A DNA stretch of 64,000 nucleotides. Origin: Pseudomonas rhizosphaerae (GTDB lineage Bacteria; Pseudomonadota; Gammaproteobacteria; Pseudomonadales; Pseudomonadaceae). Below the pieces are notes generated by a model. The model saw nothing but the letters and a program-made list of their open reading frames with translations. It did no database searches and was not told the origin of the DNA. Within the stretch, counting starts at the first letter, position 1. Each line of letters opens with the position of its first letter. Position numbers and translations under genes: made by a program. Positions 2 to 20,480 of the stretch are shown here, one piece after another. The DNA is taken from NCBI RefSeq assembly GCF_000761155.1, contig NZ_CP009533.1:4081001-4145000 (forward strand), given 5' to 3'.

Positions 2-982
2 GGTACCACCGGCCGCCTGCTGGCCATCGGCGTGCTCAGCGGCCTTGCCCTGGCGATCCACCCGCTGACGCTGGTGGTGCTGTTGCCGCTGTACGTGCAT
101 CTGGCCATGCAACACAAGCTGCGCCTGCTGCTCGTCCTGCCTGGCATTGCCTTGGGCTTTGCCCCTGCTTTGCCTGCCGTCGTCAACGACCTGGACAGCG
201 GCATGAATCTGTTCGAGATCATCCGCCGTTACCTGGCCGGTCCCGATCAGCTGGCGATCATTCCCGGCGGCCGCAACGACACGTTGTGGCGTTTCGACGA
301 CATGTGGCACGAGAAGAACGCGGTGGTGCTGCTGGGATTGTCCCTGATCGGCCCGCAGTTCCTCGGCCTGCTTGTGTGGCCGAAAACCCGCGCCCTGCAA
401 GTGCTGTGGGCCGCGCTGCTGCTCAACTTCCTGTTCGCCGTGTCCTACGGCGTATTCGACCGCTTCACCCTGTTTCTGCCCGGCATCGCACTGGCCAGCA
501 TCCTGGGCGTCGCTCACTTGGCCAAGTACCTGCCTAACAATCGTTTCGGCGTCGCCGCGCTCTACCTGTCGATCGTGGCCGGGCCGACGGCCATGCTGTC
601 GATGTGGGGGCTGTACGCCAACGGCTGGGTCAAGCTGCCAACCCACACCGAAGCGCTGCCGTTTCGCAACGACATCCGCTACTACCTGGTGCCCTACCTG
701 GAGGACCGCTCCGCAGAACAATTCGCCCGCACCTACGAAACCCTGGTGCCACCCGGCGCCCTGGTCGTCGCCGACACCACCCCTCTGGGCGCCCTGCGCT
801 CCGCGCAGGCCAACGGCGCGCTGCGCGGCCGCATCCTGCAAGGCTGCGAACAGAGCACCAACATCCCGCCCTACCTGAACGGCGCCGGCGCCTTTCTGCC
901 ACGCACTAGTTTCTGCGGGAACATTGGCGAGCAATTCACGTTGCAGGAAAATTTGCTGGGGTTTCGCCTGCAGGCGAAGTGA
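2..982 (+). CDS. Polytopic membrane protein, 5' end outside window
   Basis: The reading frame is open from the first bases of the window, so the N-terminus is missing. About 326 residues are visible. The first two thirds contain several hydrophobic segments separated by short polar loops, and the last ~120 residues form a soluble tail. The hydrophobic stretch after the motif LAIHPLTLVVLLP resembles the multi-pass part of GT-C/DUF2723-type membrane proteins, but no catalytic motif is in view and this is only a resemblance. It ends about 110 bp before hipB and shares its strand. Base composition matches the core genome. Confidence 0.6.
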   Translation, partial: GTTGRLLAIGVLSGLALAIHPLTLVVLLPLYVHLAMQHKLRLLLVLPGIALGFAPALPAVVNDLDSGMNLFEIIRRYLAGPDQLAIIPGGRNDTLWRFDDMWHEKNAVVLLGLSLIGPQFLGLLVWPKTRALQVLWAALLLNFLFAVSYGVFDRFTLFLPGIALASILGVAHLAKYLPNNRFGVAALYLSIVAGPTAMLSMWGLYANGWVKLPTHTEALPFRNDIRYYLVPYLEDRSAEQFARTYETLVPPGALVVADTTPLGALRSAQANGALRGRILQGCEQSTNIPPYLNGAGAFLPRTSFCGNIGEQFTLQENLLGFRLQAK

Positions 983-1048
983 GTATTTCTGGAAAAACTC
1001 AAACGCTGCACTTTGCGCCGGCCGCAGCTTTATTTTCGCAGGAGTTAG

Positions 1049-1084
1049 GTATACGTTACATTGACCTTACCTTGTCACGTATAC
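1049..1084. promoter_or_regulatory. Dyad operator candidate upstream of hipB
   Basis: An 8-bp perfect inverted repeat, GTATACGT at 1049-1056 and ACGTATAC at 1077-1084, is separated by 20 bp and ends 5 bp before the hipB start codon. A TTGACC hexamer lies between the arms at 1061-1066. HipB-type antitoxins repress their own operon by binding dyads in the promoter, so autoregulation at this site is a reasonable inference. No strong ribosome binding site is seen between the dyad and the ATG. Confidence 0.5.
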
Positions 1085-1089
1085 AGAAC

Positions 1090-1341
1090 ATGGACTACGA
1101 GCTCATTACCACCCGCTTGGGCAAGCAGATCAGGCAACGGCGCCTCAATCGCGGGATGACACAAGCCAAGCTCGCAGAGTTGGCCCGTGTCACGCGGCAG
1201 AAGGTCATCGCGATCGAGAAGGGCGATCTCTCGGTTGGCATGACCGCCTATGCGCGCGTGCTCGCTGCGCTGAATTGCGAACTCACGGTCATACCTGCCG
1301 TGCTGCCCACGCTGGATGAAATTCACGGGATATTCGACTGA
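1090..1341 (+). CDS. hipB: HipB-like XRE-family antitoxin
   Basis: This encodes an 83-residue helix-turn-helix DNA-binding protein, the expected antitoxin partner of the kinase encoded next. The HTH is visible at about residues 11-60 (RGMTQAKLAELARVTRQKV, then AIEKGD). The ATG at 1090 is preferred over the frame opening at 979 because the upstream residues have no family character and the operator-like dyad lies directly before 1090. The stop codon overlaps the hipA start by one base (TGATG), indicating translational coupling. Known HipB proteins dimerise, bind operator DNA and neutralise HipA; that role is inferred here from family and context. Confidence 0.8.
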   Translation: MDYELITTRLGKQIRQRRLNRGMTQAKLAELARVTRQKVIAIEKGDLSVGMTAYARVLAALNCELTVIPAVLPTLDEIHGIFD

Positions 1342-2537
1342 TGCCGACCCTACTGCAGGTTTCAACCCCGGAAGGAGAGAGCGGAAGAGTGATGCGCAGC
1401 GAAGATGACTACATCTTCCGTTATCGCGACGACGCCGCCGCGCACAGCGCGATCAGTTTGCTCATGCCCCCGCGAATGAATGAATACCGCCATCGCGAAC
1501 TTCATCCCATCTTTCAGATGAATTTGCCTGAAGGTTACGTGCTGGAGCAGCTGCGCAATCGCCTGGCCAAGGTGACGAACGTCGATCCGATGCTGCTCCT
1601 GGCTCTTTCAGGCAGCAGTTCGCCCGTCGGGCGAGTCGCAGTCAACTCGGCGGAAGTCGATGCGCTGTTGCAACGCCAACAGTTCCCCGGAGAAAGGCTG
1701 GATGAGATCCTCGCCTGGGATGGTGCAGAGGACATCTTCGCCGGGCTGGTCGATCGCTACATCCTGCGTGCCGGCATCTCTGGGGTGCAACCCAAGGTGC
1801 TGGTACCCGAGCATCCCGACCACGCGCCGCAGCGATTCACCTCGAAAACGTCCGAACTGATCATCAAGAGCGGCCGAGATGAATTCCCTGGCCTGGCGAT
1901 CAATGAGTTTCTCTGCATGTCCGTGGCCAAGGCCTCTGGAATCGTCGTGCCGGAATTCTACCTGTCCGATAACACCAAACTGTTCGTCATGCGCCGCTTT
2001 GATCGGGACAAACAGCTCAACCCTATCGGCTTCGAGGACATGACCGCACTCATGGGCTTGGCCGCCGAACAGAAATACAGCAAGAGCTACTCGTCCATTG
2101 CCAGAGCCATCCGTATGTTCTGCGCCCCTGACCAGATAGAGCATTCGCTGTCTCAGCTATTCGCTATCGTGACTCTCAGCTGCATCGTCGGCAACGGCGA
2201 TGCCCATCTGAAAAACTTCGGACTGCTCTACGCCAATCCCGCCCAGGGCGATGCACGGCTTGCACCCGCCTACGACATCGTCAACACCACGGCCTATATT
2301 CCTGACGATGTACTGGCACTGGACCTGATCGGCAACAAATCGATGTTCGCCTCGCGACAGGGCTTGCTGGATTTCGCACAGCTCTGTGGTGTGGAGCAGC
2401 CGCAAGAAGTTATCCGCACGCAATTGCAAGCGTTGGAGCAGGTGCTGGCGAGCTCGGGTGAGGTGACGGAGAAAGCGCGGCACGTGGTCAGCGCAATACA
2501 GCGCAGTGCCGATCCCTTCAGGCAAACATTTGGGTAG
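1341..2537 (+). CDS. hipA: HipA-like serine/threonine kinase toxin
   Basis: The product is a 398-residue HipA-family kinase, close to the usual length. An N-terminal HipA_N-like region (about 10-105) is followed by the kinase fold. Visible landmarks are SGVQPK, containing the regulatory autophosphorylated serine, FVMRRFDRD, the catalytic-loop motif GNGDAHLKNF and the metal-binding motif APAYDIVNTT. In E. coli the family phosphorylates glutamyl-tRNA synthetase and causes growth arrest and persistence; other members have different targets, so the target here is unknown. All key residues appear intact, so an active toxin is likely. The gene converges on the NERD gene with 37 bp between stops. 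Confidence 0.88.
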   Translation: MPTLLQVSTPEGESGRVMRSEDDYIFRYRDDAAAHSAISLLMPPRMNEYRHRELHPIFQMNLPEGYVLEQLRNRLAKVTNVDPMLLLALSGSSSPVGRVAVNSAEVDALLQRQQFPGERLDEILAWDGAEDIFAGLVDRYILRAGISGVQPKVLVPEHPDHAPQRFTSKTSELIIKSGRDEFPGLAINEFLCMSVAKASGIVVPEFYLSDNTKLFVMRRFDRDKQLNPIGFEDMTALMGLAAEQKYSKSYSSIARAIRMFCAPDQIEHSLSQLFAIVTLSCIVGNGDAHLKNFGLLYANPAQGDARLAPAYDIVNTTAYIPDDVLALDLIGNKSMFASRQGLLDFAQLCGVEQPQEVIRTQLQALEQVLASSGEVTEKARHVVSAIQRSADPFRQTFG

Positions 2538-2574: not shown

Positions 2575-3345
2575 TTAGAGACTTTGCATGACTCGACACT
2601 TGGGAAAAGCTGAACAGCCCCAAAATTGCTGACCGACATTAGCGCCCGTTTTCCGCGTGCGAACGACCAGCGCACTGCCGCACTTCGGGCAACAACGTTC
2701 AGCGCTGGGGTCACTGCGACGCTTGAGGTGTTGCACGTGTTCGCGATGAGTCGCAAAGCTCGGTGCCAGACGCCCGGTCTTCAGTGCTTGCAACATGTCA
2801 TCGACTTCGGTCTCACTGAAAACCACCTGCCGAAACGACTTGATATAGCGGATGAAGCCAATGCCCCGAGTCACGTTGGCCGGCATCTCGGTCTTGAACG
2901 TACTGCCCCCAACGAACGTGATGACCGAATGCAGGTGCGCAGGGTCGATACCCAAAGTGGCTTCCAGCGCCTTCAGATGTTTGTAGTTCTGCCGAAGGGG
3001 ATTCTGGAATTTGAAACTGCGCTTGGGAAACTTTTGCGTCCACTGCGCCTGGTGCTCGGTACCGAAAATCCAGCCGCTCATGTTCTTCGTTTCCAACACG
3101 AAAATGCCATGGATCGAGAGAAACACATGATCGATCTGCGTCGTGCCGTCAGGCGTGGTCAAGGTGACGTTGTGCAGACGGCGATAGACCTGCCCGTCCA
3201 GTTGCCAGTGCGCAAACAGGCGCACCAACAACTCGCCGATATGACCCTTGGCCCATGGCGATTTGAACAGCGCGATAAGCAACAGGAACGGGATAGCCCA
3301 GCTCAACATGCCCCAGAGCTGGGCGATGACAGGTGTGAAGTCCAT
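2575..3345 (-). CDS. NERD-domain protein with C-terminal topoisomerase-type zinc ribbon
   Basis: This 256-residue protein has one N-terminal hydrophobic segment (about 10-28), a NERD nuclease-related domain (about 32-150, with GHIGELLV, TQIDHVFLS and VLETKNMSGWI, the E-x-K/IDH pattern of this fold) and a four-cysteine zinc ribbon at the end (CCPKCGS, then WGCSAFPKCR). NERD domains belong to the restriction-endonuclease-like superfamily, and the zinc ribbon resembles those of topoisomerase I. A membrane-anchored DNA-acting role is plausible but the biological function is not established. It is monocistronic and converges on hipA. Confidence 0.8.
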   Translation of the reverse strand: MDFTPVIAQLWGMLSWAIPFLLLIALFKSPWAKGHIGELLVRLFAHWQLDGQVYRRLHNVTLTTPDGTTQIDHVFLSIHGIFVLETKNMSGWIFGTEHQAQWTQKFPKRSFKFQNPLRQNYKHLKALEATLGIDPAHLHSVITFVGGSTFKTEMPANVTRGIGFIRYIKSFRQVVFSETEVDDMLQALKTGRLAPSFATHREHVQHLKRRSDPSAERCCPKCGSALVVRTRKTGANVGQQFWGCSAFPKCRVMQSL

Positions 3346-3630: not shown

Positions 3631-3655
3631 AAAAAAAGCCGCGCAAAGCGCGGCT
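3631..3655 (-). terminator. Original rho-independent terminator of the tRNA gene
   Basis: On the minus strand an 8-bp perfect stem (AGCCGCGC/GCGCGGCT, arms 3637-3644 and 3648-3655, loop of 3) is followed by seven T. It is now separated from the intact tRNA by the inserted element. The copy brought by the element at 13153-13171 keeps the stem but not the T-tract. Confidence 0.75.
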
Positions 3656-3710
3656 CTCAAAGCTTGGTGGGCCCAGCAGGACTCGAACCTGCGACCAAGG
3701 GATTATGAGT
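3635..3710. repeat. Left attachment repeat (attL) with displaced 3' half of the tRNA gene
   Basis: These 76 bp match 13151-13226 without gaps at 74 of 76 positions; the last 48 bp (3663-3710) are identical. Positions 3665-3710 are the tRNA 3' half from anticodon loop to CCA. After 3710 the sequence diverges from the tRNA, so this copy is not a functional tRNA. Such partial tRNA duplications are the usual product of integration by tRNA-targeting tyrosine recombinases. Confidence 0.92.
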
Positions 3711-4022
3711 TGCTGGGCGACCATGTATGCCTAGTGAAGTCGTTCTTAGCTGAACGTAGGTTGGCATAGCTGGAGGCACCGTAGTATATGGTGTTGAGTG
3801 TAGTTTGAATTAGTTGACAGAAGCTAGGTGCCGTACCGTAGCTGTACCGAATTTTCACTGCCGACGATTCTACGATGCCAACGCTCTCCCAGCTCCAAAG
3901 TGCCAAGCGGTGACTGCTCTCTAAGCTATGTGAGCAGCTATTATCGGCACCGCCCTGCTGCGGGGAATGTGACCAGCCCCTATCGACAGGCTTTATCCTA
4001 GGGGCTCGTAATCTATCCGAAG
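3711..4022. other. Non-coding left end of the element
   Basis: These 312 bp between attL and the end of the giant gene have no supportable ORF. They contain a pair of CTGTACC-like words (around 3833-3852) resembling words near the right end (around 13090-13110), which could be integrase arm sites, and an inverted repeat just after the giant gene. A non-coding RNA cannot be excluded: some defence RTs use an adjacent RNA template. Confidence 0.45.
3975..4006 (-). terminator. Inverted repeat downstream of the RT gene, terminator-like
   Basis: AGCCCCTA at 3975-3982 and TAGGGGCT at 3999-4006 form an 8-bp perfect stem with a 16-nt loop. It begins 17 bp after the stop codon of the giant gene on the minus strand. 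There is no T-tract, so termination activity is uncertain. Confidence 0.4.
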
Positions 4023-7000
4023 TTATTTGGTCCATGAAGGGACTGAGATGTTGGGTAACGCCTCACCCTCCCGCAACGTCATATCGGCCTCTAGCCAGTC
4101 GTAAAGTGCCGGAGAGCAGAGCAGGTCTAGCTTAACTACCGATGAAAAAGGCTGTTGGTGTCCATTGTTGAAGAAAGAGTTTGCTCGCTCAAGAATCGCT
4201 TTCCCATCAGTAAAGTATTTACTGAAGTTAATGATAAAGTCGTTGTCGACATCATTATTTATACTTTGCGTGATAAGTTGCCAGAACTCATTTCGACTTT
4301 TAAGTCGTCCACCCAATCGCTGACCCTGATTAATTCTTGCAATATTGTTATGGTCAACCTGAACTGCGTCACAGAGAGTTTGGTCCAAGCTTGTTTCGTC
4401 GACAGTTTCAACGATTGGTAGGTATGCCACTAGCTGTAAGGGAACTGGCAGCATCTGAGGTCTAGGTTTGCCTTCAAGCATGTTATGAGGATCGATATCT
4501 GCGATCACCAATGCTTGATCAATTTCGCTCAGTGGGTCATGTTTGCTATTATAGTAAATTCCTTTTGACCAGCCATGGTATGGCGTAATGGTCTCAATGT
4601 AACCGTGAGAACCAGCCCCTGTTTTCCAGCTCTCTCTGCCAATAAAACAACTGCCACCCTTAAGCCCAGATCCTACGCCATTGATAAATACAGTTGTAGT
4701 GCCGGCGGCAAGCAAGCCAGCTTGGCCTGCTATCCAATAATCAGCAGTACGAGTGGTCGCGGCAGGTACGATCAAAATTGATCGTCTAGAGTCGGCACCA
4801 CCAGGCTTGGAACAGACCGAAAGCCATTTAGATAGTAGTTTGAGATCCGCCCAGACTTGAGCTTCTGCAGCGCCGAAGCCAAATCTTGCACACATTGAAA
4901 CATAATCTCTTGCCATCTCTGGAATGTTGGTTGGGCTCGTGAACAGGAAAATCTCAGAGCATATCAGCTCCATGAAATTCGCAAGTGGCAACTCTGTGTT
5001 GGCTAGCAACTTAACAACACCATCAGCGTCCAGATCCCAATTTGCACGTCTCAATTCATCTATTATTTTTCCGGGCATGAACAGGGGGGTGAGAGGATCA
5101 GTTCCAGGCCGGATGAACTCATTTAGAGCTACTGATCGGTATTTCTTTGATCTGCCCCATTGCAATACAATGCCCTTGTCAATCTTGTCACTCAAGGACA
5201 TAGCATCTTCATTTGTTTTGGGTGCAAGCGGTTTGAGGCATTCGGCAATATCACGCGGTACGGGCCACAAGAGGTTGAGGCTCGCGCTTTGTTTTAGGGG
5301 GGGCGGACCGGAGTCGAAAGCTAAAAATGTTCCTGCTAAAACCGCTACCGTCTTTCCGGGTAAGCACTCTTCTTTTAACCACTTAACAGTTTCTGCACGG
5401 ACTGAGTATTCAGGAAGTATCAATAAGTCCACGCCAAATGACTGGCATGCGTTCACTGCGTTGAGCAATAATCGCCGACGACGAAGCTCACCCCAGCTGG
5501 GTAGGGAAATATTTTCGTTTTTCCATAGGTGGTGTTGACCGGCAGATTCAGTTGCATTCAAAAGGGCTTGATAGGGAGAGTTATATAGGCGTTTAAGTTC
5601 TTTTAAAACTGCTGGTTTACAGACGGAACTGAAAGGCCATTTTTGTGGGGTGGCCTCCACCATAGGGTGTGCATAGCTCAGCTCTTGGTCCCACTGAAAT
5701 AGAGCTACCCGAACATGGGCAGGGTTTTTATTGGACTTCCTATCGCTCCAGGCTGTTAGCTGGCTATTTCTAAATGAATTCTTTCGGGCGTTGAGTGTTG
5801 CGTCGGTAAGCGGTAGTTTTTTATTGTGTGTTGTATTACGCTCAGTATCTATTTTATCAAAGCTGTCTTCAGTGCTAGTTTGGTTTGGGGTTGGTATTAA
5901 TTGTGTGTCTGCTAAGGCAGTCTCGGCCTCAGGCTCAGCAGTTTCAAGAATCGGTGAAATATCTATGGGTGCGCTTTCAGAACCCTGCTCGCTAGGACCT
6001 AATACAGTGTTGTGCTTGCTGTCTACATTTTTAGTCTCGGCATAAGGCGATTCCAAGTCCTTACATAGTGCAATTGATGCGAAAGGCTCGCCTAGTACTG
6101 ATATAGAAAGCAGGCGTTGACTGTTTTTTTCGTAAATCTCGCTCCATACACGTACGATTCTACGGTCTTGATCAAAACACTCCTCAACGTGGCGAGCACG
6201 CAATGGGTATTGCGAGATCATCCATGGCTTTATATCCCATGCAAGTCCTCTTGAGTCAGTGAAGCGTTTGGTTTGAGCATTGAAGCCGTATGATTGTTGC
6301 GTAACCAAAATTACCTGGAGACCAAGCGCGGAATCTAAGTTTTTGATTAGATTGCTGACGTTCTCTAATAATTCTATATTTAGGGTATCAAAAACTTTTT
6401 CGCTGATATCAAAGAAAGGCCAGTCGCTTGCGTCCACCGCAGTTGAGTCTTTAGTAGTGAGGCCCGCTAATGCTGTAGCGTATTTTCTTATTTCTGTGCT
6501 GATTTCTTCTGGGATTTGTGGCTCGCCGTTGTCGTCCAACCTCATTCGGTGTCCGAGATGTGATACGAGTACCCGGAAATGGTCGAGGAGGCTTACATTT
6601 TCATCAGTGGTTTTATCTGTTGTCGCCGGTTCGGATAAAACTGCTGTGGCAGGGGGAAGCTCCCATTCCGCTGGAAAATCAAATCCCTCAAAGCGTGCAA
6701 ACCCCCCGTGGCTTCTTAGTGAAGCTATAATCCCCCGTAGAGCAACAGCGATACCAATACCTACAATTCCAGCTCGAAAAATCTTCCACGCAAAAATTGG
6801 AGAGAGTTTTTCTTCTTCATCCATCGACCATATGCTTCTGGCAAGGGTCAAGACCCCACTCAGGTCTCTCCTCAGGCCACTGACTGCTGTAGTCGGTGCA
6901 GCAATGACCTCACCTATGCTTAAGGGTAGTTTCGTTAGAACCCTGTCGGCGACCGCACGTAGAAATACCGTGAGCTCTGTGACCTCAATATTTTTCTCAT

Positions 7001-10000
7001 AGCGGACGCGCATTCCCGCAGTTTCGGTTTCAGTGGCAAGCAGATGCATTAGCTGCATCTTTGTACTATCTGAGTCTTCCGGAAAATGCTCCAATAACTC
7101 AAGCGCACGTTCAACACTTGCCGGAAGAAAACTTGGGGGCATAACGCGCCGCCCTATTTGTGAGTTAGCAAAGGCACCCCTCAGTTTACGAAGTTGGCTT
7201 CGTAGCACGTACTGTGACGGGGCGGCAAGCGTTGTCGCATCCAAAGGTATTTCGGATTCGGAGGAGCTAAATTTAGCAATATCGTCGTGCAGGCCTATGT
7301 AATCGCTTAGCGCAACCCCGGCTCGCCACAACTGGGCTTCGTATATCGGTATCTCAATGGTTCTTAGGGCCCGCCCACCGTCTCTTACAAATGCTCGGTT
7401 TCCTACTTCTCCTTTCGTTACGCCCTCACAAATTAGGTAGCAGTTCCCAGAGGTCATATCTGTGGCAAGGTATGGCCAAGCGGGTATAAGCTCTAAACCA
7501 TCATTTTGCCTCTCGTATTCAGCCATTATTACCACAATGGCTCTATATAGTGAGGCTACGTGCTTCAATCCCTGAATAGCGGAAGGGAAACCGGTTGACG
7601 GTTTCTCAAATACCTCCAACAAAAGATTTTTCGGGACTTCTGAGTTTGATCGAAGTATGGCGGATTGAGGTTGGGCTTCGGTGTTCCATGTGGGTGTAAG
7701 CACAACTACGCCCGCAGAGTTTGCACCAAAAAAGTCTAGAGATGTGGTATTGGTTTTAGTTGAATCTATTTCATAGCACTCAAACGAGCTGATTTTTTTG
7801 ATTTTGTTTTCTGAGGAGCTATCGATCTGGCAAGCAACTATACGTTGCTGATTGACGCCAGGAAGAGGGGGCATGACTAATAGTTTTTTACCAGCTTCTA
7901 GAGGACAAAGTAAGCGCGCTCTATTTGAGAGAATCTGTATTATGCTTTCCCGAGGGACTAATGCAACCAAAATCTGAATTGCTAAGCCGGAGTATCGATT
8001 CTCTGTTTTTGAGAAAAACTCAAGATCGCTATCGCTGCCATCGGATGGCAGTAAATACCGGAAGAACTCATAAGAAGCGGCGTGATTAGGTCTGATGCTC
8101 TTTTCTATAGATTGGAACTGAGTGACATATGAACTCAATGGGTCGGATCCGCTGGACTGATCCGCGAGCATGAAATCTTCTACTGCGGCATGGAACCAGT
8201 TGAAGGGTTGCCAGGAGCGAATATACATTGATCGCTCTGCGTAGGATTTAGTTCTACGAACGGGCATTCCGCACGATTTTGACGCTTTCCATTCGAGGAG
8301 ATCTAGTCTTTTATCTATCTGGTGCTTAAGCGTAGAGCTGCTTTCAAGAGCATGCAGTTTGAACCGCTCCCCAAGCACGGTTCTAGCTAGGAAAGAGATG
8401 CGTTTGTGCCGAACGGTATTTTCTAAAGCAGTTAAACCCGATTGGAGGCTATTTTTATGATCTATAAGCTTTTCCAGTCCCTCAAGTGCGAACAGATTCG
8501 GTGCCTCCCATCCGAAACTATCCGGGTTTAACTGCCACCCACACTCCTCAGTACATTCCTTCCAATAGCGATCATAAATTTCCCACGCTAAATCTGCCGC
8601 ATCGCTTGGATCAATGTCAGCTGAGAGGAGGTCGGATGCTACAACGTACCATATTAGCCTTGCTCCCTTTGCAAGCTCGCTAGAACGTAAATCCATAGCT
8701 AGGAAGGACGTTTTCACTGTTTGCAAGATTATTTCTATTGGGCTTTTGTATATCTCCCAATTTGATAGCAGTTGCAGGGCAGATTGTCTATCTGAGGGGG
8801 GAGTGCCTGACCAAAACTCCCACCCCGCTTCACCATCGCCAGCCAACGGTGGTTCCCACGCTGGACCAGATGCTTCTAAAGCTCGCCCTTGATTTGCATA
8901 ATCTGCAAATTCCTCAGCAGACATTGGCGGAATAGCGTCAGCTTTCGCGACCAACGCCAGGTCTAAGCTCCGAGTTTTTTGATCAACTAGCTCTCTCAGT
9001 TCCTCAAGAAGTACGGAGCTGCTAGCTAGTAAAACTATGTCATCTACATACCTTGCATACCCTAGATGAGTTTCCCCGTCTACATTGTATTTGTTCATCA
9101 TTTCCAGTGCCGCGAGATCTACTGGAAACAAAGCCACTGAGCCTAACCATGCTGAGATTACTGGGCCTTGAGGAATACCGCGTAAGGGATCTGATTTATT
9201 AATTCTCCCGTTATCAGGGCTAAGGTATGGGTAGCCAAAGAGCATGTCGCATAATTGCTCGACAATTATTGCGGATTTGTCCGCTGCTTCATCCGCAGAT
9301 GCTTGTATTTTCATCAGTTCAGCAAACGCCGGTGCATTATCAGCGACAGTTTCCAGAGCTTGTTGTATAAATGGTTGAATGCTGTCTCTTACGACGTGTC
9401 TGCGGATGCGGTCGTAATATCGACTGACATCGAGGCGGATAACATGCACGTAATTTATAGATTTGGCTTGATTTTTAAGGGACTGCATAAAGTCTCGCCA
9501 GCAGTCTAGGAACGGACGAAACATTCCCTGATCTGAAGCTGGCTGCCTGCCCTCAATAACCTCCATATCAATTTGATAGGCGAAACTTAGCGTCTGTTCA
9601 AGTATAATAGGTTGGGTGTTATCTGAGGGGGTAGATATTCCTGTCGTAACAGTTTTTCTTTCTTCGCGGTAATAGCGGACAGCTGGTATGCACTGGCTGA
9701 ATGCTGTAACACCGAGAGCGGAAGCATCCCAGCGTTCTGTAAGTAGCTCATTTAGTAAGTACTGATGCGCTATTAAATCCTCAGGTTGAGGCATCACCTT
9801 TAATCTCGGCTCTTCTGCGCCGAAGGACCTCGGCACCCATACGGCCTCGAACGGGTCGATGGGTCCATGTATTTCATTAGCCAATCGTTCAGCGAGCAAC
9901 ACATTGAATGCACTTGCCGCAATATCTAACCGCTCCCATTTTGATTCTTCGCAGGGCAACTCTCCTCTTCGTGAGCCCATATAGGCGAGCAGTCGGGCGT

Positions 10001-11516
10001 GGTTTAGTCTGGTGCCTGAGTTGGTAAGATAACATTCCGATGGAGCGGCTTCAGTCGCAATGTCGACACTTAAAAAATCAATCCATTCTATTTGAGCCGC
10101 CGAGTCAAGATCTGTTCGGCCATTTAAAAAAAGGTCGCTTGATTGGAGATGGGGGTTGGCTACAACTTTCCTGAGTTCAGCACGAGTTTTCTCAAATGAC
10201 CTGTATTTTCGAGAGCGACTGGCACTGTTCCACTTTAGATTTTCAAGCAGTTCGTCGGCATGCACACCAAACTGATTTGCTAGTACTGCTACTACAGGTC
10301 CATAGGTGGAAACATCGATAAGTGACTTGGCCTGCGGCGCGGACAAATTTCTCAAATATTCGTCAGGATCTTTTATGCTTGTGTTTGAATGGTCTGCGCT
10401 TGTAAGCTGAGCAGTAGTAGGCCATACAAATACCACGTCGAGATTAGCGCCTAAGAATTTTAGTACAGCCTCGGATGCTCCTCTTAATCCCGCTTCATCG
10501 CGATCAAAACAAATACAGATTGTCAAAGAGGCTAGCTTTGAAGGGAGCGTGTCGCTAAGCCCTTTCATAATCTTAATTTGTTCTTTGCTAATTGATGTTC
10601 CCATTACTGCTACTGCAGGAAATCCCAAGCTTTCCAATCTTAGAGCGTCAAAAAATCCTTCGCAGATATATAAGCGTAGATCTGTTTCGCCTCGCTTAGC
10701 CAATGCTCGTAGAGTGGTTGTAGCTTGCTCTATTCTAAAAATAGCTTTGGATTTTGGAAAGTTTTTTGAGAATAGGTATTTTGCTGGTTGCTCATCTACC
10801 GCCCGGGCGGCAAGGCCTAGTAGTTTTTTCTGATCGTCTCTTATCGGGAATACGATTCGATCCCCTGAAAAAAAGTCTATATAGTTGTTGTCGTGGATTG
10901 ACTGTAGATTTAAATAGTAGTTTTGGAACCCCGAGCTTGGAAGGATTTTGCGTATTAGGTTCGCTTCTTCCAATGTTGCTGCTAATTCACGCTTCGTTCC
11001 AAAATCTTTTCTTGAGGAAACCTGTTTAGATAGTGAGTTTTTGTGTGCGTATATGAATCCTGCATCTTCCATCAAAAAAATATCAAGCTTGCGATCAGTC
11101 ACCCAGTTAGCTAGTCGTTGCTTGTCATTGCTTAACAGGTATAACTTATAAGCTTGCGCAAGCCCTGAGCCTTCTGGCTGCTCAGGCTGCATAGCCTTCT
11201 GTTTTCTCGCCCTATTTACAGGGGTGGTAGTAGAGTTTGGTGACAGCCACTCTAATGCACCTTTGAAATCGATATGAAGAACTCCCTTCACCAGATCGAT
11301 TGCATCTCCATGTTCACCGCAGGCAAAGCAGTGGTAATGCTGTCCAGAATTATCTCTGCTCGTATCAATTAGAAGGGAAGGAGTTTTATCGTCATGGAAC
11401 GGGCACAGCGTGAGCTTGCGCGTAGCTGATTCGCTCCTAAGCGCCATACCCAATCGCTCTGCCACCTTGTCGATTTCGATCTCAAGCAGCAGTTTCTCAA
11501 CGTTGATACGGGGCAT
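4023..11516 (-). CDS. Giant DnaG-like primase / reverse transcriptase / nitrilase fusion
   Basis: The product has 2,497 residues from the ATG at 11516, chosen because AAAGGA lies just upstream; an in-frame ATG at 11573 would add 19 residues but has a weak site. Domains in order: CHC2 zinc finger (C38, H41, C63, C66); primase core with RIVFPIRD at about 220; TOPRIM with E286 in ICEGFFDAL and D338/D340 in FDRDEAG; reverse transcriptase with motif A IRLDVSRYYDRI (D696), motif B RGIPQGPVIS (about 780) and motif C YARYVDDIVLLA (D825, D826); an unassigned middle from about 880 to 1810 with a hydrophobic segment near 1580-1600; an acidic low-complexity linker to about 1925; and a nitrilase-like domain with E2036 in LPEYS, a Lys pair near 2125 and C2186 in LICSE. 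Every motif of the primase half has a counterpart in the host DnaG in this window. RT plus C-terminal nitrilase is the DRT1 defence layout; phage defence is inferred. No frameshift is seen. Confidence 0.9.
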   Translation of the reverse strand: MPRINVEKLLLEIEIDKVAERLGMALRSESATRKLTLCPFHDDKTPSLLIDTSRDNSGQHYHCFACGEHGDAIDLVKGVLHIDFKGALEWLSPNSTTTPVNRARKQKAMQPEQPEGSGLAQAYKLYLLSNDKQRLANWVTDRKLDIFLMEDAGFIYAHKNSLSKQVSSRKDFGTKRELAATLEEANLIRKILPSSGFQNYYLNLQSIHDNNYIDFFSGDRIVFPIRDDQKKLLGLAARAVDEQPAKYLFSKNFPKSKAIFRIEQATTTLRALAKRGETDLRLYICEGFFDALRLESLGFPAVAVMGTSISKEQIKIMKGLSDTLPSKLASLTICICFDRDEAGLRGASEAVLKFLGANLDVVFVWPTTAQLTSADHSNTSIKDPDEYLRNLSAPQAKSLIDVSTYGPVVAVLANQFGVHADELLENLKWNSASRSRKYRSFEKTRAELRKVVANPHLQSSDLFLNGRTDLDSAAQIEWIDFLSVDIATEAAPSECYLTNSGTRLNHARLLAYMGSRRGELPCEESKWERLDIAASAFNVLLAERLANEIHGPIDPFEAVWVPRSFGAEEPRLKVMPQPEDLIAHQYLLNELLTERWDASALGVTAFSQCIPAVRYYREERKTVTTGISTPSDNTQPIILEQTLSFAYQIDMEVIEGRQPASDQGMFRPFLDCWRDFMQSLKNQAKSINYVHVIRLDVSRYYDRIRRHVVRDSIQPFIQQALETVADNAPAFAELMKIQASADEAADKSAIIVEQLCDMLFGYPYLSPDNGRINKSDPLRGIPQGPVISAWLGSVALFPVDLAALEMMNKYNVDGETHLGYARYVDDIVLLASSSVLLEELRELVDQKTRSLDLALVAKADAIPPMSAEEFADYANQGRALEASGPAWEPPLAGDGEAGWEFWSGTPPSDRQSALQLLSNWEIYKSPIEIILQTVKTSFLAMDLRSSELAKGARLIWYVVASDLLSADIDPSDAADLAWEIYDRYWKECTEECGWQLNPDSFGWEAPNLFALEGLEKLIDHKNSLQSGLTALENTVRHKRISFLARTVLGERFKLHALESSSTLKHQIDKRLDLLEWKASKSCGMPVRRTKSYAERSMYIRSWQPFNWFHAAVEDFMLADQSSGSDPLSSYVTQFQSIEKSIRPNHAASYEFFRYLLPSDGSDSDLEFFSKTENRYSGLAIQILVALVPRESIIQILSNRARLLCPLEAGKKLLVMPPLPGVNQQRIVACQIDSSSENKIKKISSFECYEIDSTKTNTTSLDFFGANSAGVVVLTPTWNTEAQPQSAILRSNSEVPKNLLLEVFEKPSTGFPSAIQGLKHVASLYRAIVVIMAEYERQNDGLELIPAWPYLATDMTSGNCYLICEGVTKGEVGNRAFVRDGGRALRTIEIPIYEAQLWRAGVALSDYIGLHDDIAKFSSSESEIPLDATTLAAPSQYVLRSQLRKLRGAFANSQIGRRVMPPSFLPASVERALELLEHFPEDSDSTKMQLMHLLATETETAGMRVRYEKNIEVTELTVFLRAVADRVLTKLPLSIGEVIAAPTTAVSGLRRDLSGVLTLARSIWSMDEEEKLSPIFAWKIFRAGIVGIGIAVALRGIIASLRSHGGFARFEGFDFPAEWELPPATAVLSEPATTDKTTDENVSLLDHFRVLVSHLGHRMRLDDNGEPQIPEEISTEIRKYATALAGLTTKDSTAVDASDWPFFDISEKVFDTLNIELLENVSNLIKNLDSALGLQVILVTQQSYGFNAQTKRFTDSRGLAWDIKPWMISQYPLRARHVEECFDQDRRIVRVWSEIYEKNSQRLLSISVLGEPFASIALCKDLESPYAETKNVDSKHNTVLGPSEQGSESAPIDISPILETAEPEAETALADTQLIPTPNQTSTEDSFDKIDTERNTTHNKKLPLTDATLNARKNSFRNSQLTAWSDRKSNKNPAHVRVALFQWDQELSYAHPMVEATPQKWPFSSVCKPAVLKELKRLYNSPYQALLNATESAGQHHLWKNENISLPSWGELRRRRLLLNAVNACQSFGVDLLILPEYSVRAETVKWLKEECLPGKTVAVLAGTFLAFDSGPPPLKQSASLNLLWPVPRDIAECLKPLAPKTNEDAMSLSDKIDKGIVLQWGRSKKYRSVALNEFIRPGTDPLTPLFMPGKIIDELRRANWDLDADGVVKLLANTELPLANFMELICSEIFLFTSPTNIPEMARDYVSMCARFGFGAAEAQVWADLKLLSKWLSVCSKPGGADSRRSILIVPAATTRTADYWIAGQAGLLAAGTTTVFINGVGSGLKGGSCFIGRESWKTGAGSHGYIETITPYHGWSKGIYYNSKHDPLSEIDQALVIADIDPHNMLEGKPRPQMLPVPLQLVAYLPIVETVDETSLDQTLCDAVQVDHNNIARINQGQRLGGRLKSRNEFWQLITQSINNDVDNDFIINFSKYFTDGKAILERANSFFNNGHQQPFSSVVKLDLLCSPALYDWLEADMTLREGEALPNISVPSWTK

Positions 11517-11630
11517 TCCGATTCCTTTCGCTTTGGACCTGAGGGTGGGCAGAGATGCCGCCATAGCCATCATATCTTCATATCTGTCGGTCGCCCATGT
11601 CCCCTTCTATCCCTGATTCCGACCTGAAGG

Positions 11631-11723: not shown

Positions 11724-11791
11724 AGGTTAAGCGGGCAGAATCGGTTCACTAAGGAGGAACGATCAATAAATCATGGTCACCGGTGTAGTGG

Positions 11792-12954
<1,163 letters not shown>

Positions 12955-13018
12955 CGAACACCTCTGTGTGGCGAGCATTCTCGCCTAAATGGGTGTCCGG
13001 CTTCATTAGACCACTACA

Positions 13019-13053
13019 CAAGTGCCGGAAGGGGTTTTGACGAGAGTAGCCAT
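13019..13053 (-). pseudogene. Integrase N-terminal stub, truncated by the IS
   Basis: An ATG at 13053, preceded by AGGAGC, opens a frame reading MATLVKTPSGT, which stops making sense exactly at the IS end. This is the start expected for a phage/island tyrosine integrase common in Pseudomonas (the next residue is normally W, and the remaining TG before the IS fits a TGG codon). The gene reads away from attR, the usual orientation. The remaining ~300 or more codons are absent on the other side of the IS, so the gene is deleted rather than merely interrupted. Identification rests on an 11-residue match from memory. Confidence 0.65.
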
Positions 13054-13150: not shown

Positions 13151-13257
<107 letters not shown>

Positions 13258-18506: not shown

Positions 18507-20480
18507 TCACGCGCCAGTTGAGGTCGGGGTTTGTGCGTGAACATTGCGGCTGAGAAGCTCGCGCAGTTGATTCTTTTCTTCTGCGCTCAGTTCACTCTGT
18601 CTTGATTTTCTGAGCAAATGCTCGAGACAACGCTCGCGTTGGCGAGCGGACAAGCTAGTTATAGTGTCGAAAAACTGTTGTTCAAGGTTATCGGCATCGA
18701 TCAGCCATTCTTTCTCGGCCAGTGCCCGCAGCAATTTGCCCTGTTCGGTGCCGTGCCAGCGTGCGATCAACTGCAGTGAGCGTAGCTTGGGATTCTTCTG
18801 CAGGGCTTCGAGCAGTGCCACCAGCAACTGCGCATGCAGCTGTTCTTCGTCGGCAAAGTGGCTGACGTCCTCGACCTTCTCCGCCAATTGCGGGTAGTGC
18901 AGCAAGGTGCGCAGCGCGCTCAGCGTGGGCGGCTCGACCGTTACCGGTGTCCGCGGCTGCGGGCGCGGCTCGAAATCGCGCTTGCCCTTGCCTTTCCACG
19001 GCTTGTCTTCCCACTTCTTGCCTTCCCACTTTTTGCCGGGGGACGTAGCCGATGTCCATTGTTGCTGTGGTTCGAAGGCGGGCGGTGCGTGAAAGTCACT
19101 GAAGTCCGGTGAATAACCGGGCATCGAACCGTAGTCGGCCATCGGATCATGGCTGGGCATGGGCGCCGCGGGAGCGCTTTGCACCAGTTGGCTGACGGCC
19201 TCACCACTCAAACCGGTGATCTGGCTCAGGCGGTTGCGCATCAAGGTACGCAGATTGGCGCCCGGCACCTTGTCGATCAGCGGCGCGGCCAGTGTCGCCA
19301 TGTGCGCCTTGCCTTCGAGCGAGCGCGGGTCGGCCTCTTCGGTCAGTTGCTGGAAAAAATAATCGGCCAGCGGCTGTGCATGTTGATTGATGCGGGCCCG
19401 GAAAGCGTCGGTGCCTTCGGAGCGCACCAGGGTGTCCGGGTCTTCGCCTTCGGGCAGGAACAGGAAACGCGCCTTGCGCCCATCCTGCAGGCTCGGCAAC
19501 GCGGCCTCCAGCGCGCGCCAGGCAGCGTTGCGGCCTGCCTGGTCGCCGTCGAAGCAGAACAGCACGCTGGGCACCACGCGGAACAGGCGTTTGAGGTGCT
19601 CCTCGCTGGTGGCTGTGCCCAGGGTCGCGACGGCGTTGCGCAGGCCTTGCTGGGCCAGGGCGATGACGTCCATGTAGCCCTCGACGACGATGATCTCGTC
19701 CAGGTTGCGGTTGTGCTTGCGCGCCTCGTACAGGCCGTACAGTTCCTGGCCCTTGTGGAACACCGGGGTTTCCGGCGAATTCAGGTACTTGGGCTTGTCG
19801 TCGCCCAGCACCCGGCCACCGAAGGCGATGACGCGTCCGCGGCTGTCGCGGATGGGAAACATCACACGGTCGCGGAAACGGTCGTAGCGCTTGCCCGAAT
19901 CGGCGTTTTCCACCAGCAGGCCGGCATCGATCATGGCCTTCTGCTGCAGGCTGTCGCTGCTCAAATGCTTGAACAGGTTGTCCCAGCCGGGCGGTGCGAA
20001 GCCCAGGCCGAAATCGCGCGCGATTTCGCCGGACAGGCCGCGGCCCTTGAGGTAGTCGACCGCCGCCCGGCGTTGCGGATGGCCCTTGAGCGCCAGGCGA
20101 TAAAACTCCGCAGCGGCTTCCAGTAATGGGTACAGCGGCGAGTCGGTGGGCTGGCGCGGTTTGCTGTTGCGCCCGCTGTCTTCGCGCGGCACTTCCATGC
20201 CGGCAGCCTTGGCCAGTTCCTCGACGGCCTGGGGAAAGTCCAGGTTGTCGTGGTCCATGATGAAGCCAAGGGCGTTGCCACCGGCGCCGCAGCCGAAACA
20301 GTAATAGAACTGCTTGTCGGGGCTGACGCTGAAAGAGGGGGTCTTTTCCTTGTGGAAAGGGCAGCAGGCCGTGTAGTTCTTGCCGGCTTTCTTCATTTGC
20401 AGACGCGACTGCACCACATCGACGATGTCGGTGCGGTTGAGCAGGTCGTCGATGAAGCCTTGGGGAATCAGCCCGGCCAT
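18507..20480 (-). CDS. dnaG: DNA primase DnaG
   Basis: The 657-residue primase makes RNA primers for chromosome replication with the DnaB helicase. It has an N-terminal CHC2 zinc finger (CPFHKEKTPSF, then YYCFGCGAGGNA), the core motif RVMFPIRDSRGRVIAFGGR, and TOPRIM residues in VVEGYMDVIAL and CFDGDQAG. A proline/lysine-rich linker (about 440-510) precedes the C-terminal helicase-interaction domain. It lies between rpsU and rpoD. No gatB/yqeY-family gene lies between rpsU and dnaG, which some pseudomonads have. It is a useful internal reference for the primase half of the giant island protein. Confidence 0.98.
   Translation of the reverse strand: MAGLIPQGFIDDLLNRTDIVDVVQSRLQMKKAGKNYTACCPFHKEKTPSFSVSPDKQFYYCFGCGAGGNALGFIMDHDNLDFPQAVEELAKAAGMEVPREDSGRNSKPRQPTDSPLYPLLEAAAEFYRLALKGHPQRRAAVDYLKGRGLSGEIARDFGLGFAPPGWDNLFKHLSSDSLQQKAMIDAGLLVENADSGKRYDRFRDRVMFPIRDSRGRVIAFGGRVLGDDKPKYLNSPETPVFHKGQELYGLYEARKHNRNLDEIIVVEGYMDVIALAQQGLRNAVATLGTATSEEHLKRLFRVVPSVLFCFDGDQAGRNAAWRALEAALPSLQDGRKARFLFLPEGEDPDTLVRSEGTDAFRARINQHAQPLADYFFQQLTEEADPRSLEGKAHMATLAAPLIDKVPGANLRTLMRNRLSQITGLSGEAVSQLVQSAPAAPMPSHDPMADYGSMPGYSPDFSDFHAPPAFEPQQQWTSATSPGKKWEGKKWEDKPWKGKGKRDFEPRPQPRTPVTVEPPTLSALRTLLHYPQLAEKVEDVSHFADEEQLHAQLLVALLEALQKNPKLRSLQLIARWHGTEQGKLLRALAEKEWLIDADNLEQQFFDTITSLSARQRERCLEHLLRKSRQSELSAEEKNQLRELLSRNVHAQTPTSTGA

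Follow-up and report, generated by a model that had tools for sequence, protein, structure and literature searches.

A UG29 gene is the cargo of a small island at tRNA-Met

The stretch of Pseudomonas rhizosphaerae DNA analyzed here (64,000 nt of contig NZ_CP009533.1, positions 4,081,001 to 4,145,000; hereafter the window) contains a gene at 4023..11516 on the minus strand that encodes 2497 amino acids in a single open frame, with its stop codon at 4023-4025. Translation from an in-frame ATG at 11573 would lengthen the protein by 19 residues (full frame from the first ATG, 4023-11573, minus strand); we preferred the start at 11516, from which all residue numbers are counted, because 92 of the 113 long homologues among the matches listed start in the same alignment column. 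An artefact of two fused frames is ruled out by the lack of an internal stop and by homologues of equal length.

The RT_UG29 profile of PADLOC (PADLOC-DB PDLC03767, filed under DRT) matched residues 1-2496 over profile positions 1-2278 of 2280 (E=0, 2529 bits), with no difference from the UG29 family detected in the window protein, which by its sequence is a member of UG29. A first-pass annotation had read a primase, a reverse transcriptase (RT) and a nitrilase in the one frame, and profiles as well as predicted folds bear out this reading (see below). The novelty that it implied does not hold: the family is not new, because PADLOC-DB 2.0 (2023) already contains this full-length UG29 profile. 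In the literature searched (the 2022 UG/Abi classification paper lay outside that search), we found no study of mechanism and no defence test of UG29, and a search combining primase, nitrilase, DnaG and DRT returned no title or abstract start that describes a primase-RT-nitrilase fusion. New here are the near-invariance of the three active sites, the lack of a recurring neighbour, the Ser/Tyr residue 883 and the status of the gene as island cargo.

A small island integrated at tRNA-Met carries UG29, the gene being the cargo of a 9.5-kb insertion between two repeats of the tRNA-Met 3' end. The intact tRNA-Met(CAT) lies at 13181..13257 on the minus strand (ARAGORN; Rfam RF00005 with 74.4 bits at 13184-13257). 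On its side, a 76-nt att-like direct repeat (13151..13226) comprises the 3' part of the tRNA and a downstream hairpin; a distal copy of tRNA-Met 3' end and following hairpin, 97% identical, is found at 3635..3710. The 32-mer at the tRNA 3' end occurs exactly twice in the 4.685-Mb genome, both times at an island end, and the GC content is ~44-50% over 4-12 kb vs 53-67% in the other 1-kb blocks of the window.

Next to the UG29 gene, an IS3-family insertion sequence occupies 11784..13018 on the minus strand (IS3 transposase profile, E 4.5e-79; terminal inverted repeats with 32-nt arms, 81% complementary), and IS3 copies on plasmids match it over 1235 bp at ~80% identity. The element cuts off a short open frame that starts beside tRNA-Met (13019..13053, minus strand) and of which only the first residues remain; these presumably resemble an integrase N-terminus. 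As IS3 interrupts the frame next to the tRNA, the island may be unable to excise alone. No island gene was recognized besides UG29, IS3 and the cut-off frame, and Rfam at gathering thresholds found only the tRNA; flanking DNA similarity is limited to subsets of loci, and an associated non-coding RNA is not established. A small frame at 3703-4035 on the minus strand was considered as a partner gene and rejected, because it has no Pfam, PADLOC or NCBIfam match and runs into the att copy, and also because no neighbour family recurs across loci. Just outside the att-like repeat lie a HipB/HipA-like pair (979-2537, plus strand), in which an HTH protein precedes HipA_C, and a protein that combines a NERD domain with a zinc ribbon of the topoisomerase type (2575-3345, minus strand).

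The protein joins a DnaG-type primase, a reverse transcriptase and a nitrilase-superfamily domain

All parts of the protein are encoded on the minus strand. It starts with a DnaG-type CHC2 zinc-binding domain (11232..11516; residues ~1-95, with C38, H41, C63 and C66; Pfam PF01807, E 1.1e-14), followed by a DnaG RNA-polymerase and TOPRIM core (10056..11186; residues ~111-487) with R220, R238, K246, K255, E286, D290, D338, D340 and D383 as key residues. Profiles and predicted fold thus recover the zinc-binding domain, the RNA-polymerase domain, TOPRIM and the catalytic residues of DnaG, at a score of 157.8 bits vs the 283.6 bits of the NCBIfam dnaG equivalog cut-off. The same parts, including a catalytic TOPRIM, are found in bacterial DnaG (2au3, 5guj and the host DnaG at 18507-20480); after them the host protein runs on to residue 657, and in UG29 the RT takes the place of this further part. 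The RTasDnaG-like profile (PADLOC-DB PDLC03800, also under DRT) matches residues ~5-402 with E 5e-53 but represents a separate family of 550 positions. It shows a weak second match at the nitrilase end, where residues 2338-2402 (window 4311-4505) align with profile positions 365-429 (E 5e-5), hinting that split versions of a UG29-type system may exist.

The RT domain (8637..10028; residues ~497-960) bears D696, GIPQGP at 780-785 and Y823-V-D-D826. The middle region that follows (6066..8636; residues ~961-1817) is mostly helical with few short strands in the predicted secondary structure; residues 1201-1297 fall between the predicted models, and profile comparison of the region with DRT1 and UG5 gave no convincing match. 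A linker predicted to be disordered (5820..6065; residues 1818-1899; pLDDT <50), gappy in the alignment, leads to the nitrilase-superfamily domain (4458..5768; residues ~1917-2353), which has both the fold and the Glu-Lys-Glu-Cys active site of that superfamily (E2036, K2124/K2125, E2133, C2186). The protein ends in a conserved tail (4026..4112; residues 2469-2497), in which P2469 is kept in 108, D2473 in all, V2492 in 107 and W2495 in 109 of the 113 homologues among the matches listed.

The three active sites are near-invariant

A search of ~5.8 billion proteins, in which 7979 candidates were scored, yielded 153 homologues, and the best 120 of these 153 were used. We aligned the window protein with the 113 homologues longer than 2350 aa among the matches listed (114 rows; 31-97% identical to the window protein). 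Primase residues R220, R238, K246, E286, D290, D338, D340 and D383 are invariant in this alignment, with Arg replacing K255 in two rows; so are D696, GIPQGP and YVDD of the RT and E2036, K2124, K2125, E2133 and C2186 of the nitrilase. In the zinc-binding domain, C38, C63 and C66 are kept in 113 of the 114 rows, the sole miss being the N-terminally truncated row P0074, and H41 is kept in 110, with Asn in three and P0074 again as the fourth miss.

A second set of 32 genome loci, which partly overlaps the first, extends down to 22% identity. The nitrilase is reached in 27 of the 32, and these keep all tested positions except R220, which is Gly in two Lachnospiraceae loci; with this same exception, the active sites are kept in the loci at 22-27% identity, among them records titled as a deltaproteobacterium, Lachnospiraceae and Planctomycetaceae. 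In four loci with an early end (L007, L021, L023 and L028) the primase and RT positions are kept, save for K255, which is Arg in L028. A Stenotrophomonas MAG (L029, 10001-17047) holds a broken UG29 copy, whose longest frame is partial around the RT and has YVDD changed to HVDD. The analysis did not include loci L072-L074 or the DRT1 fragments L043-L046.

Because the active sites are near-invariant in the 113 homologues and in other phyla, none of the three enzymes looks dead or vestigial. A vestigial primase in particular is ruled out, its active site being invariant, with few exceptions, in the 114 rows and in the genome loci. The same residues bear on the idea that the primase core is mainly a sensor of single-stranded (ss) DNA or of the phage replisome, which switches the RT-nitrilase part and makes little or no primer. 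Such a sensor would suit the presence of the zinc-binding domain, and escape mutants of the antiviral RT system DRT1 map to the T4 ssDNA helicase Dda (PMC13275509), so that a related system could sense ssDNA. A pure sensor would nevertheless have no need of the TOPRIM acidic residues, Arg238 and Lys246, all invariant, nor of the nearly invariant Lys255, and we regard this explanation as quite unlikely.

UG29 is patchily distributed and lacks a recurring neighbour

UG29 is patchy in its distribution, with 3 of 199 genomes of the genus carrying it, the window's own included. For the surroundings of the gene, each locus contributed up to six frames that were 150-1500 aa long and no more than 5 kb away, picked by length from fetched stretches, some of them shortened at contig ends; this gave 151 frames, of which 140 were scanned, as 11 of the longest were omitted for size. 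Judged on these frames, no neighbour family is present in more than 5 of 33 loci (window included), and thus no accessory gene recurs. Among the families listed, a phage integrase domain was found in three of the 140 frames and rve in three. The best 25 of 159 PADLOC profiles include, as raw counts, mad3 three times, TniQ and LmuB twice each, and type I specificity, JetA, HerA and SoFic once each. A tRNA-Met is present in the fetched stretch of three of the 32 other loci (L006, L013 and L019). Three Pseudomonas loci (L002, L006 and L019) have 70-85% identical DNA just downstream of UG29, which suggests that they may share a common mobile unit.

Two plasmid records matched the RT piece; measured against the entire protein, their matches extend over 87% and 61%. 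The plasmid pPNAP05 (NC_008761.1, 1-23482) holds a relative whose sole annotation is 'CHC2 zinc finger domain-containing protein', with a NACHT protein, a tyrosine recombinase, a nuclease and a PIN/VapB pair as neighbours. A record named for Cyanobacteria phage AS-1 (DQ115810.1, contig_3, 3-1373) contains a 456-aa piece matching UG29 with 458.6 bits, which by eye stops short beside a transposase-like frame; this record may be contaminating bacterial DNA.

The position of the gene between tRNA att-like repeats together with an IS, and relatives on plasmids, such as that on pPNAP05 two genes from the tyrosine recombinase, would also fit a protein for replication or maintenance of a mobile element rather than for defence. 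We consider this improbable, given that plasmid records number only two, that of 98 stretches of viral contigs that matched a pattern none was confirmed as UG29, and that no phage record covers 80% of the protein. Moreover, no further gene was recognized in the island apart from the IS and the cut-off frame, a nitrilase would have no obvious role in replication, and restriction, mads, Jet and HerA families are among the neighbours in other genomes. From its context and relatives, UG29 very probably has an antiviral role.

UG29 resembles DRT1 in layout and DRT7 in carrying a primase

The first-pass annotation had likened the protein to nitrilase-bearing DRT systems, and in kind the likeness stands. 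It had labelled DRT1 as class 1; PMC13275509 places DRT1 in class 3, there defined by an RT with a nitrilase or phosphohydrolase in one protein, a combination that UG29 also has. DRT1 (UG1; PDB 9YFD) and UG29 both run from RT through a helical region to a C-terminal nitrilase in one chain, and share an RYVDD motif C (four DRT1 loci compared), a conserved C-terminal tail and a hydroxyl within a disordered stretch that follows motif C, albeit in a different serine context. In DRT1, defence needs both the RT and the nitrilase site and takes the form of abortive infection (PMC13275509). UG29, however, is twice as long, begins with a complete DnaG core and has a far more extended middle, and the middles do not align. 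The Drt1a profile reaches 39.9 bits on the RT segment only and does not match along its length, and the nitrilase of UG29 compares weakly with those of DRT1 and UG5 (probability 40% and 44%, respectively), whereas UG5 vs DRT1 gives 98.6%. Drt1a was found in 7 of 398 genomes of the phylum (E<=1e-20) and in 0 of 185 of the class (E<=1e-60), where the control was silent as well and absence is not implied; the same reading applies to RTasDnaG-like (0 of 274 genomes, E<=1e-75) and UG10_large (0 of 219, E<=1e-30).

Kinship of the UG29 RT to those of DRT1 and UG5 was established neither by profile comparison nor by a tree. Among PADLOC RT profiles, UG19, UG35, UG17, UG20 and UG21 all outscore Drt1a on the RT piece. 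When the UG29 RT profile was compared with single sequences, two DRT1s scored best (88.5 and 78.2) and other RTs scored up to 76.3, but the remaining two DRT1s ranked lower (69.3 and 61.7), so that the ranking does not discriminate. In a tree of UG29, UG1, UG5, UG17 and unlabelled RTs (L049 and L058 omitted as near-copies), UG29 forms one group (support 100/100) outside DRT1 and UG5 (fork support 88/84); under constraint, a clade of UG29, DRT1 and UG5 was not rejected (p-AU 0.33), and UG29 with DRT1 alone gave p-AU 0.16. Solved structures were searched twice by profile, and 9YFD was matched in one of these searches, over the RT only (E 0.0014); its absence from the fold-search matches listed carries no weight for or against kinship. 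A search with the RT piece alone gave 23 matches, mostly short or partial proteins, which were set aside.

DRT7/UG10 shares with UG29 the fusion of an antiviral RT to a primase; there, an RT is joined to a primase-polymerase fold (PMC13213688, citing a preprint), and concerted priming and reverse transcription have been suggested for UG10 (PMC8934634). The UG10 primase is an archaeo-eukaryotic AE_Prim_S/PrimPol (PMC8934634, PMC13174585), in contrast to the bacterial DnaG/TOPRIM of UG29, which has an unrelated fold. In UG29, the RT alone is matched by UG10 profiles, and the protein does not contain the AEP module of DRT7/UG10.

Residue 883 is a candidate protein-priming site

Ser883 (codon TCT, 8868..8870, minus strand), 57 residues after Asp826, is a candidate for a protein-priming hydroxyl, because this position is only Ser or Tyr in homologues and lies in a low-confidence loop after YVDD (predicted loop 881-907, pLDDT <50). 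In its column, 97 of the 114 rows, window protein included, have Ser and the other 17 have Tyr (96 and 17 in the 113 homologues among the matches listed); it is the sole exclusively Ser/Tyr column of the protein among columns filled in >=95% of rows. In the genome loci, which partly overlap the 114 rows, Ser is found in 28 of 32 and Tyr in four, including Lachnospiraceae, Planctomycetaceae and Pedosphaera. In these loci, Ser is always encoded by TCN and Tyr always by TAY, codons that differ by a single base; on a quick tree built from the 114 rows, a minimum of five Ser/Tyr changes is required. Constancy of the Ser codon was dropped as evidence of its own, since a control (L029 omitted) shows that other conserved serines also keep one codon class. 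Taken together, the sequences suggest that residue 883 may be the protein-priming residue; Y647, Y701 and Y820 are further invariant hydroxyls and also possible primers.

There is precedent for such priming. DRT1 and DRT5 are reported to form covalent protein-DNA adducts without added template, and the DRT1 priming residue, Ser402, follows Asp325 by 77 positions and falls in a segment unresolved by cryo-EM (PMC13275509); AbiK primes from Tyr44 within a long loop (PMC9508834), and tyrosine priming is probable for DRT9 (PMC12483538). According to PMC13275509, Ser402 is not conserved across other class 3 DRTs. UG29 and DRT1 differ in sequence around these residues, so the parallel between residue 883 and Ser402 is one of analogy.

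The fused primase invites another explanation, which the first-pass annotation had put forward, namely that the DnaG core makes an RNA primer that the RT extends to cDNA, with no protein hydroxyl needed. Primase and RT are indeed adjacent, the RT match starting ~10 residues after the primase match ends, and the primase site is invariant. DnaG, however, requires an ssDNA template, and a template RNA was not found, the tRNA being the only Rfam hit at gathering thresholds. RT-primase-polymerase fusions of the DRT7/UG10 type exist (PMC13213688; PMC8934634), but published work on DRT1, DRT5, AbiK and DRT9 (PMC13275509, PMC9508834, PMC12483538) points to protein priming, as does the Ser/Tyr-only position 883 after motif C. 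Self-priming by primase-made RNA is accordingly less likely than protein priming, and we deem it unlikely overall.

A tentative model for UG29

Of the explanations weighed, the best is that UG29 would be a complete one-protein, nitrilase-bearing antiviral RT system that works like DRT1, and as a whole we give it an even chance. Against it stand the tree, which does not join UG29 with DRT1 and UG5, the weak nitrilase match and the differing context of Ser402. Its parts differ in strength: the nitrilase is probably the effector; protein priming of the UG29 RT is favoured, with somewhat less assurance; and it appears evenly poised whether ssDNA is where the primase acts or whether it starts the RT strand. 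If the RT is protein-primed, the DNA product or phage ssDNA is the likelier target of the primase, ahead of a first primer for the RT.

In such a DRT1-like system, the RT would use its own residue 883, Ser here and Tyr in some relatives, to begin a DNA chain, much as DRT1 uses Ser402, and the DNA product would remain covalently tethered to the UG29 protein. The DnaG core would lay short RNA primers on ssDNA, be it the tethered strand or exposed phage ssDNA; once RNA-primed, the tethered strand could be converted to a duplex through extension by the RT. Phage infection might then alter the product or the oligomer and thereby activate the C-terminal nitrilase, which would shut down the cell by abortive infection, as reported for DRT1. 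In its most explicit form, UG29 would be a machine of two polymerases, in which the RT lays down one strand on Ser/Tyr883, DnaG RNA-primes the second, and the duplex licenses or restrains the nitrilase as a suicide enzyme. We put this forward as possible but doubtful. If true, antiviral RTs would have acquired PrimPol (in DRT7) and DnaG (in UG29) in separate events, to serve one and the same purpose.

Antiviral RTs are proving to be makers of unusual DNA, and a primase is now associated with two types of them. In UG29, one self-contained gene, the purpose of the primase can be addressed through a few point mutants (E286, D825/D826, S883 and C2186). UG29 would be a case in which an antiviral RT has captured a replication-type DnaG primase and kept it catalytically intact across several phyla.
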